Shown: piece after piece, positions 32,705 through 35,083 of the stretch | Numbering within the stretch: the first letter of the stretch is position 1 | Layout: each line of letters opens with the position of its first letter | NCBI GenBank assembly: GCA_018466975.1 | Contig: CM031562.1 | Coordinates: forward strand, 930,001-994,000 | From: Sparassis latifolia | Lineage: Eukaryota > Basidiomycota > Agaricomycetes > Polyporales > Sparassidaceae | Direction of reading: 5' to 3' | Length of the DNA: 64,000 nucleotides | Program-made: the position numbers and the translations under genes | Notes under the pieces: model-generated | Seen by the model: only the letters and a program-made list of their open reading frames with translations | What the model was told of the DNA's origin: nothing | The model's database searches: none

Positions 32705-32710
32705 AACTAG

Positions 32711-32932
32711 TATGGAGGCCGTTTGGTTACGGTTCGTTTAAGGACGGATGCCGTGATGCCGACGCGTGGCTCTCACGTGGATTGTCCAGGAGACCTCAGT
32801 CACCCTCTATGTGCGCTTGTAATTTTTCCTTAGCACCTGCAATTCGTGCCGCACGTCGTGCTCGCCGTGCGTCGGCTCAAGCTATCGTCGCCGACGACGA
32901 GCTCCGCTACATAATATATGCCAAAATTCTTG
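32711..32932 (+). repeat. left terminal inverted repeat of the Pack-type element
   Basis: Reverse complement of 34588-34806, from TATGGAGG at the outer end to CCAAAATTCTTG at the inner end. Differences are mostly transitions plus a few short indels (near 32821-32845 and 32881-32920). Confidence 0.9.
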
Positions 32933-33160
32933 CTGCTCCCCGACATATGACTACAACAACTTTTCTGCAATTTGCTAGTCTCTGTCCTGGCGCACGTCTG
33001 CGCCCGATCCCGCGTCCAGCCTGAGTGCACGAGCTCGGCACTGGCCCTTTGACAAGTACTCCGGGCTGTTTCGCGGCTGTACTCAGGCCCGTGTTGGACA
33101 GGCTGCATAGGATGTTGCCTCTCTCGGCCTCACGAGGGTGGAGCATCCTATTTTGTTTTC

Positions 33161-34014
33161 CAACCTGAAGGGCAAGCTGCCGTCCTAATCACCGGCTGCA
33201 CATAAGTACATCACATACCACATCATATCTCGCCCACTCACCACATCTGGCACAGCGGAGGCATCGGCCAGGCGACTGCACGCACCTTTGCCCGCTCCGG
33301 CTGCTCAGTAGCAGTGCACTACCAGGCGGCATCCTCGCACGCCAAGGCAGACACGCTCATCTCCGACCTCAAGGCCATTGCCAGCTCCGACGCGCGGTTC
33401 GCCATCTTCCAGACAGACCTGTCGAACTACGACGAGGTGCGCCGCCTCCATGCTGAGGTTGTGCAGCAGATCGGGCATCCGGACATCCTCTTCGCAAACC
33501 ACGGCATCGCGGGGCATAAGATTGGCCCACTGCTGGGCAATATCAACGACGTGCCCATGGAGGTGTTCGAAGAGATGTGGTGGACGAACACCGGCACGAG
33601 CTACATGTTTGCGCAGCTCTGTGTGCTGCACATGGAAGCGCAGAAATACGAACATGTCATTTTCACGTCGAGGTGCGCTCTGCGTGCCCCTTTGCCCGAA
33701 ATCCATGGTAACTCATGTCTATCATAATCAGTATCGCTGCAGGTGATTCTCTGCATCGGGCACTCGTCCGACACCGCTGATCTTTCCACCATCTACCAGG
33801 TAACAGCGGAGTCATCGAACCCCACTACACATCATTCAAAGCCGCCCTGCATGGCCTGGTCCACTGGCTCTCCCTGTGGTACGCCAAGGACGGAATCAAA
33901 TCCAGTGCAATTGCACCCGCACTCATCGAGGATACCGCCACGATGGCGAACCTGATGCCTGAGATGCGGAGCAAGACCCCCATCGGGCAACTTGGGAAGC
34001 CCGACAAGATGGCC
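33161..34014 (+). pseudogene. captured short-chain dehydrogenase/reductase fragment
   Basis: Exonic blocks are 33161-33201, 33256-33672, 33732-33742 and 33800-34014. The first intron now has AT in place of its GT donor; the other two have normal GT-AG ends. The translation carries the Rossmann nucleotide site (VLITGCTGGIGQATARTFAR), a FANHG segment, the catalytic Ser in FTSSIAAG, and Y-T-S-F-K in EPHYTSFKAALHG, i.e. the YxxxK motif. It breaks off after the GQLGKPDK segment, where a complete enzyme would go on for about 40 residues to its C-terminus, and no start Met is evident. So most of an SDR was taken up at DNA level with introns, and its first splice site has since been lost. An 11-nt microexon (33732-33742) is kept. 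Confidence 0.75.
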
Positions 34015-34059
34015 TGTGGGGGTCTTGCTGCAGTCACCCTCTTCCCCACTCGTACTCGC

Positions 34060-34557
34060 GCCGACGCCCACGCACATGAAGAGCAGCAGTCAGAAGCTGG
34101 GGCAGGACTCGCGTGGCGGGTCACGCAAACATATCAGCATGCCGTCCCTGGTGTCCACGAGCCGGCGGGCAAGCCAGCAGCAGGTGCGGGAGCGCGAGAG
34201 GGAGCGGGAACGCGAGGGAGAATGCGATGCGGGGCTTAGCCTGCACCCATATGCGATGGCGCCGAGCCCGGGTGGGTACCGCGCAATGGCGTAAGGGTGT
34301 TCGTCACCGGTGCCGCCGAACACTGGTGCGCCGCTGGTGAACGGGAAGGGCACGGGGGCACCGAACACAAATACGTCCGAGCCCTTTGAGTATGCGCAGA
34401 CACCGCGGGCAAGGGCACGGACTCGCGCGAGGACACAATATTGGCGGGGGCAAACCGCATGGAGCCGAACGGCTTTGGTGTGGGGGAGCGCGGGATGAAC
34501 ATGTACGACCGCGAGCAGATGATGAGGGGAGCAGGAGACAAATACTTCTTGCGATGT
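34060..34557 (+). pseudogene. second captured coding fragment, low-complexity Arg/Glu-rich protein
   Basis: Plus-strand reading from about 34060 gives SSSQKLGQDSRGGSRKHISM, STSRRASQQQVRERERE and LHPYAMAPSPGGYRAMA, then a stop at about 34291. Protein-like sequence resumes in the same frame (GAPLVNGKGTGAP) and, after a frame change, as NRMEPNGFGVGERGMNMYDREQMMRG up to about 34530. Composition and flow are those of a regulatory-type protein with low-complexity runs, quite unlike the SDR before it. I do not recognise the donor gene. It lies wholly between the inverted repeats. Confidence 0.5.
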
Positions 34558-34587
34558 ATATGGTAGTAGTGGAAATGAAAATATTTG

Positions 34588-34806
34588 CAAGAATTTTGGC
34601 ATATATACTATGTAGTGGAGCTCGTCGTCAGCGATGATGAGCTCGAGCCGACGCACGGCGAGCATGACGTGCGGCAAGAATTGCTAAGGAAAAAATACTA
34701 GCGCACGTAGGGGGTGACTGAGGTCTCCTGGGTAATCCACGTGAGGGCCACGCGTCGGCATCACGGCATCTGTCCTTAAACGAACCGTAACCAAACGACC
34801 TCCATA
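34588..34806 (-). repeat. right terminal inverted repeat of the Pack-type element
   Basis: Partner of 32711-32932; outer end CCTCCATA, followed directly by AACTAG. Confidence 0.9.
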
Positions 34807-35083
34807 AACTAGGACAGCTCAGTCGCAGCCATAAATACGTTGTAAGACTCGGTACTTGCCTGTTCTAGATAGGAGATCAGATTCGCGATCGGCCGAAACA
34901 CGTGGCCGCCGGCATTAGGTACGCGGTCGCGCGAGCTCCTCGATATTGCCGTTCAAGCTCGCTGCATCCTCCAGTCGTCTGCTCAACTGTGTCCAACCTC
35001 ACGCTCCTCCACCATCCGTTGCATTTCTCTCTTGCGTTGAGCAACTCAATATTGTAACTGTTGTCTGACTTTCTATCACCCCT

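Follow-up and report, generated by a model that had tools for sequence, protein, structure and literature searches.

How does DNA from two unrelated host genes come to lie between a pair of inverted repeats in a mushroom genome, and what could have moved it there? The question is raised by positions 32711-34806 of the window, the 64,000-nucleotide stretch of Sparassis latifolia DNA that was analyzed here and that sits on contig C11 of the genome searched (41.4 Mb in 22 contigs). Very probably the segment is a DNA transposon of the Pack type, non-autonomous and gene-capturing, whose ends are IS3EU-like. It combines the features by which Pack-TYPE elements are recognized: terminal inverted repeats (TIRs) with target site duplications (TSDs) of superfamily length, the lack of a transposase gene, host DNA that came from elsewhere, and dispersed copies with varied cargo. 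A Pack-type element holding two host gene pieces was also what the original prediction had proposed, and the parents of both pieces have now been located, on contigs C4 and C20 for the first and C7 for the second.

Aligned end to end, the left arm of 223 bp (32711-32933, forward strand, starting TATGGAGG) and the right arm of 220 bp (34587-34806, reverse strand, terminating CCTCCATA) are 89.4% identical over 226 columns, close to the predicted length of about 220 bp. The two arms share complementary blocks of 125, 45, 36 and 20 nt at 89-100%. The flanking AACTAG repeat, noted from the start as perfect, occupies 32705-32710 and 34807-34812 with 0 mismatches between its copies. A six-frame Pfam scan of the entire element returned SDR domains only, in keeping with the expectation that no transposase lies inside. 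Matches from a bacterial-type promoter and terminator scan were at shuffle level and are left out of the argument.

The first cargo had been described as an intron-bearing SDR fragment. The parental introns are indeed kept, and the description needs correcting in that the cargo consists of three forward-strand pieces colinear with one 2.4-kb locus on C4 (L041), with 221 and 1110 bp absent between the pieces. Two of the three derive from upstream of the parent gene, namely 32942-33114 (L041:2849-3020, 86.7%) and 33119-33158 (L041:3242-3280, 90%). The third, at 33166-34013 (L041:4391-5233, 88.4%), is the SDR gene fragment itself and runs from within the first coding exon to about 28 residues short of the parental C-terminus, with the start missing. 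Its introns at 33202-33255, 33673-33731 and 33743-33799 (forward strand) are those of the parent, an 11-nt microexon included; since they are retained, the capture was from DNA, as had been proposed. The intron from 33202 has AT in place of its GT donor in the window copy, and the GT is present in the four sibling copies examined and in both copies of the parent.

The SDR parent is an intact gene of the 3-oxoacyl-reductase type, found twice in the genome, on C4 (L041) and on C20 (L042), at 99.8% identity; the window copy is 86-90% identical to it. The parent covers the 260-aa proteins P0035 (S. crispa) and P0036 (S. latifolia) at residues 1-159 and 161-260, its reading lies 1-2 residues off the records of the two species where compared, and many related proteins from Polyporales and other mushrooms appear among the matches listed. 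It is a stand-alone conserved gene elsewhere in the genome. A native gene at its own locus, the reading of the cargo that would have undone the original prediction, is ruled out because the SDR parent is intact and lies elsewhere. The block that holds this parent, about 9 kb long, is itself duplicated at 99.8% between L041, near a contig end of C4, and L042 on C20, either as a subtelomeric duplication or as an uncollapsed haplotype.

The second cargo was predicted to be an unrelated Arg/Glu-rich coding fragment. This open reading frame (33992-34294), in the same orientation as the SDR fragment, matches the tail region of a casein-kinase-1-like gene, the 3' part of which was captured at 34031-34528 (forward strand; C7, L043:3256-3744, 88.2%). 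Over 191 columns the protein P0030, annotated as 'casein kinase 1', matches the C7 parent at 58%; its match to the window element, in the frame of the Arg/Glu-rich ORF, spans 127 columns at 39%. At the C7 parent Pfam gave a kinase match at sub-threshold level only, and upstream lies what we take, by eye, to be the CK1 core motif. The C7 parent matches P0030 in two successive frames at L043:3450-3490, where an intron, an indel from assembly or damage to the gene could explain the change of frame. Both parental genes thus lie on other contigs than the element, and neither has a TIR match within the roughly 2.8-3.8 kb read on each side.

A genome search with the left TIR, suggested earlier as a way to find siblings with other cargo, gave 24 BLAST places; they comprise 11 elements with both arms, plus one solitary end each on C12 and C1. 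With 24 places in the genome, a unique local inverted duplication, the other reading that the original prediction had set against its own, is ruled out. The match count is not a product of chance, since the 22-base TIR end has 20 genome matches at three or fewer mismatches and its reversed control has 0. TSDs were compared in 10 members, with L018 and the two single ends set aside. Seven of the 10, the window copy (L009) included, have a perfect 6-bp TSD, each a distinct 6-mer. The 27-kb member has a TSD with one mismatch (5 of 6 bases), and L013 and L011, with 5 and 4 matching bases, have no clean 6-bp TSD. As a control, one mismatch or fewer was seen in 2 of 90 cross-paired flanks and in 1003 of 200,000 random 6-mer pairs.

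Cargo differs among these members in a manner that allows the order of capture to be considered. Both the SDR and the kinase pieces are present in five members (L009, L010, L011, L012 and L017). The kinase piece occurs without SDR in L013, L014 and L023, with small bits of it in L015, and is longest in L013 and L014. Since the kinase piece is found in more members than the SDR piece, the kinase was probably captured first and the SDR next, followed by lineage-specific deletions; alternatively, the SDR piece was lost from L013 and L014. In L010-L014 and L017 the kinase piece ends on its 3' side at one shared parental base (L043:3757), and the window copy stops 13 bases short of it; the SDR-kinase junctions differ between L017 and the close group. 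Because the same SDR and kinase cargo recurs in five members at separate sites, the composite must have moved after capture.

Other members hold DNA of other origin. Six-frame Pfam found an MgtE piece (E 1.2e-7) in L016; the stretch that contains it is closest to C11:2999159-3000329, at 88% identity, followed by C4 at 77%. The 27-kb member, in which a pair of ends from this TIR family spans 27.2 kb at C10:2875398-2902558 (L019-L022), contains a copper amine oxidase piece (Pfam 1.3e-9) in a stretch 86% identical to a C3 locus, the adjoining part of which is held by L018 at 85% identity. It also contains a GH47 piece (Pfam 2.6e-6), in a stretch 90% identical to C10:4819348-4819493, and a methyltransferase match just below the cut-off. 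These source loci on C11, C3 and C10, placed by match coordinates, are not among the 24 TIR places. Counting the SDR and casein-kinase-1-like genes together with MgtE, amine oxidase and GH47, the family draws on no fewer than five source loci. The six-frame Pfam scans covered L009, L014, L015, L016 and L018 whole and the 27-kb member in part, setting aside L010-L013, L017, L023 and L024, and gave no match in L014, L015 or L018. Intron positions, where checkable, show that cargo was taken from DNA. It is possible that the host-type pieces of the 27-kb member were brought by a nested element; this origin is less favored because short stretches are shared with L016 and L018. Separately, 183 bp of L014 (2132-2314) are 83% like C11:795048-795230 and are a candidate for a sixth capture.

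As to how host DNA entered, a related element would provide, in trans, a transposase of integrase type (IS3-like DDD/E) that cuts at TATGG/CCATA and inserts with a 6-bp stagger. Host DNA would most likely have entered during faulty gap repair following excision, when the repair strand could switch to unrelated templates. Template switching is favored because the pieces almost adjoin the TIRs, because several sources lie side by side, and because there are internal deletions relative to the parent and no TIR relic by the two parents read. The composite of SDR and kinase DNA then moved to new sites, and its copies later decayed, mostly by C-to-T and G-to-A changes at CpG. Capture could instead have followed a Pack-CACTA-type route, in which neighboring insertions trap the DNA between them and move as one unit; tandem insertion and re-mobilization of this kind are proposed, in the accessible text of PMC8903248, for plant Pack-TYPE elements of several superfamilies. 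We regard this route as a serious though rather unlikely candidate, since the surroundings of the two parents (about 2.8-3.8 kb on each side) are without a TIR match and the window cargo starts about 10 bases or less from the left TIR.

The ends, the TIR length and the TSD length together suggest that the family belongs to IS3EU. In the available parts of two papers (PMC12730594, PMC10045372), fungal IS3EU elements are described as having TA..TA termini (TAYGG..CCRTA in rust fungi), TIRs longer than 30 bp and 6-bp TSDs. The window element ends in TATGG..CCATA (TATGGAGG..CCTCCATA) and so has the TA..TA termini, its TIRs of 220-223 bp are well over 30 bp, and the 6-bp TSD is perfect in seven of the 10 members. 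No IS3-like transposase with the window's TIR was found in L009, L014, L015, L016 and L018, scanned whole, or in the scanned part of the 27-kb member, and the autonomous copy that the original prediction had envisaged did not turn up there.

A search of the genome for integrase-type genes gave 21 rva_4 (PF24764) matches at about 10 loci. Four rva_4 genes lie within paired TATGGCGGCC ends 17.5-20.2 kb apart and flanked by 6-bp TSDs, at C5:1364100-1382659 (one TSD mismatch), C7:1657221-1677409, C2:1422028-1439487 and C10:1491781-1509263. Over seven such end pairs, including those on C8, C11 and C12, five TSDs are perfect, that on C5 has one mismatch and C8 has none. For these giant elements the far ends were found by pattern and short end stretches were read, with the loci on C9, C11 (two), C6 (two) and C13 set aside. 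Two end pairs, separated by 1.68 and 1.29 kb, leave no room for an rva_4 gene, which suggests movement in trans. The ends of the window's family agree with C5/C7-type rva_4 ends at 11 of the first 13 bases, with no likeness beyond about 13. Judging from ends and TSDs, rva_4 may be the IS3EU transposase, and IS3EU-type transposases probably exist in this genome. Alpha-kinase was considered as a marker of IS3EU and rejected, since its two loci are weak and neither comes within 200 kb of an rva_4 locus.

The TIR family could instead derive from a different superfamily whose TSDs are also 6 bp long, for instance a hAT6-like or Polinton-like lineage. The TSD of Polintons is 6 bp long. According to the available text of PMC12730594, hAT families with 6-bp TSDs exist as well. 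The scanned members of the window's family yielded no matching transposase. Such a placement is nonetheless improbable, because TATGG..CCATA with a 6-bp TSD is what the accessible descriptions of fungal IS3EU give (PMC12730594, PMC10045372) and because ends and TSDs resembling these also occur on rva_4 integrase elements in this genome. The long TIRs and near-6-bp TSD of the 27-kb member prompted a Polinton-like reading, which was rejected because the scanned parts of this member contain a KDZ exon and host-type pieces.

The cargo may also be read as a gene. P0029, a 354-aa protein of S. crispa annotated as '3-oxoacyl-reductase', has 353 of its 354 residues reproduced by six window exons on the forward strand (32712-32731, 32790-32866, 33102-33201, 33256-33672, 33732-33742 and 33800-34239), placed by hand and confirmed by translation. 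The reading, which spans 32712-34239, begins at an ATG one base inside the TIR and passes through two TIR exons, then SDR and then kinase DNA, the last in another frame than the kinase's. One of its five introns (33202-33255) begins with AT, not GT, in the window copy. Other models cross or resemble the family in a similar way: P0034 (S. crispa, 266 aa, closest to L010) reads from SDR about 20 residues into kinase-derived DNA, P0034 and the S. crispa models P0002 and P0003 resemble sibling copies, and the S. latifolia model P0001 is identical to L017 over 149 residues. As the accessible text reports, annotation of S. crispa used RNA-seq hints, StringTie, CodingQuarry and EVidenceModeler (PMC6207663), and transcription of P0029 is therefore plausible. 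Since the TIR is able to supply a start codon and exons, chimeric transcripts from the element are possible, and a chimera born of a transposon seems to lie behind at least one public 'enzyme' entry. A broader proposal, which we hold only tentatively and consider doubtful, is that this IS3EU-like TIR family constitutes a general gene-shuffling system of Sparassis that has drawn on at least five unrelated host loci, with its ends supplying start codon, first exons and splice sites for expressed chimeric genes, of which P0029 would be one.

The element might instead have become a host-adopted, functional chimeric gene, with transposon ends that are incidental. Relative to the parent, and taking the parents as little altered, the SDR part of the window copy shows 93 substitutions, of which 52 are C>T or G>A (38 of the 52 at parental CpG) against 24 that are T>C or A>G; in the kinase part C>T and G>A account for 34 of 49, 24 of them at CpG, against 7 in reverse. 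Adoption would be consistent with an annotated 354-aa chimera from a near-identical copy in S. crispa, with the second S. crispa model that crosses from SDR into kinase DNA, with the RNA-seq hints behind that annotation (PMC6207663, available text), and with a dN/dS of 0.28-0.38 for the main SDR exon between the parent and five copies. Low parent-copy values can, on the other hand, come from constraint on the parent. The same exon gives 0.52-0.60 for L017 against the other four copies and 0.36-1.19 for the six pairs among four close copies, each on few changes, and dN/dS of this exon gave no clear sign that the copies are maintained as proteins. Further against adoption, an intron donor is lost in the window copy, the SDR exon of L012 has a 4-base gap at the place where the L011 match also stops, the kinase DNA in P0029 is out of frame and the SDR C-terminus is absent. 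A search with P0029 gave full coverage for P0029 alone among the 120 of 226 matches listed, the next best reaching 74%. Host adoption is therefore very unlikely.

A KDZ transposase as the driver of the family, suggested by a KDZ domain between the two TIRs of the 27-kb member, is likewise very unlikely, given that KDZ lineages have 7- or 8-bp TSDs in the available text of PMC12730594 and the family here has 6-bp TSDs, that the KDZ exon looks nested, lying between repeat arrays of opposite orientation as a nested element might, and that the left part of this member, where searched, is mostly multi-copy repeat.

The non-autonomous, gene-capturing transposon has relatives in print, each of which shares part of its character. 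Pack-TYPE elements are described from plants, among MULE, CACTA, hAT, PIF and Mariner elements, as non-autonomous TIR elements with TSDs that carry and spread coding-gene DNA (PMC8903248, in the part available). The Sparassis family is like them in this respect and differs in its basidiomycete host and IS3EU-like ends. With IS3EU/GingerRoot elements it shares TA..TA termini, TIRs longer than 30 bp and 6-bp TSDs, as given in the accessible text of PMC12730594 and PMC10045372; unlike them, it is non-autonomous as far as scanned, and the scans of its members yielded no IS3-like transposase. Styx of Zymoseptoria is likewise a fungal element from an IS3EU ancestor and gained two further coding sequences, but it has four coding sequences including a DDD/E transposase, and the available part of its description makes no mention of intron-bearing host gene fragments (PMC10853768).

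Multiplication of a gene between TIRs is also documented in fungi, in the hAT transduplication of histone H3 in Pyrenophora and Pseudocercospora (PMC3538342, PMC6710886). According to the accessible text, these cases are from ascomycetes and concern one gene, captured in P. fijiensis as an intronless transcript, and one of the same papers has a Tc1/Mariner case; the window's family captured several unrelated genes at the DNA level. Carriage of TET/JBP by fungal DNA transposons offers an example of IS3EU elements acquiring genes, there as an accessory gene in transposase-encoding transposons as far as the available text goes (PMC12730594). The window's family carries fragments of assorted host genes instead. 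Helitrons are not known to have such TIRs and TSDs. Those of Pleurotus ostreatus, which are rolling-circle elements unlike the window's, carry host gene fragments on a basidiomycete DNA transposon (PMC4289320, accessible part). The opinion that Pack-type capture is little documented in fungi was thus partly right, with the published hAT histone H3 cases (PMC3538342, PMC6710886) and Pleurotus Helitrons (PMC4289320) as exceptions.

No paper on Pack-type capture by IS3EU was found in the open-licence PMC literature searched, and none on DNA-level, IS3EU-like capture of several unrelated genes in a basidiomycete in the literature searched, which lay mostly outside subscription journals. Plant Pack-TYPE elements, fungal hAT transduplication and fungal IS3EU are already known separately; as far as the accessible texts extend, their combination in a basidiomycete appears new. 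Gene capture by cut-and-paste elements is a recognized source of new genes in plants, and the fungal TIR precedents in the texts available are the ascomycete hAT with one histone gene, the Tc1/Mariner case and accessory-gene carriage. In the mushroom genome examined here, a single small family has captured DNA from at least five unrelated loci, and the parents remain for comparison, so that setting copies against parents gives direct access to the order of capture, the loss of cargo and the decay.

Some minor features of individual members may also be recorded. The left side of L018 is truncated, and its right TIR is apparently interrupted by an insert of about 480 bp (L018:4172-4654) with apparently about 9 repeated bases on either side. 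L018:1807-2020 is a 214-bp repeat, likely a miniature element, with at least 37 other copies at 93-99% identity (40 of 197 candidates scored). The left and right flanks of L016 are inverted copies of one stretch, and L011 contains a nested ORF of 1355 aa, which from its look we take to be Copia-like. Beside the window element itself, a gene-like reading frame, seen by eye, apparently starts about 270 bp downstream, from window position 35083 onward, and the insertion may lie in the promoter region of this frame.
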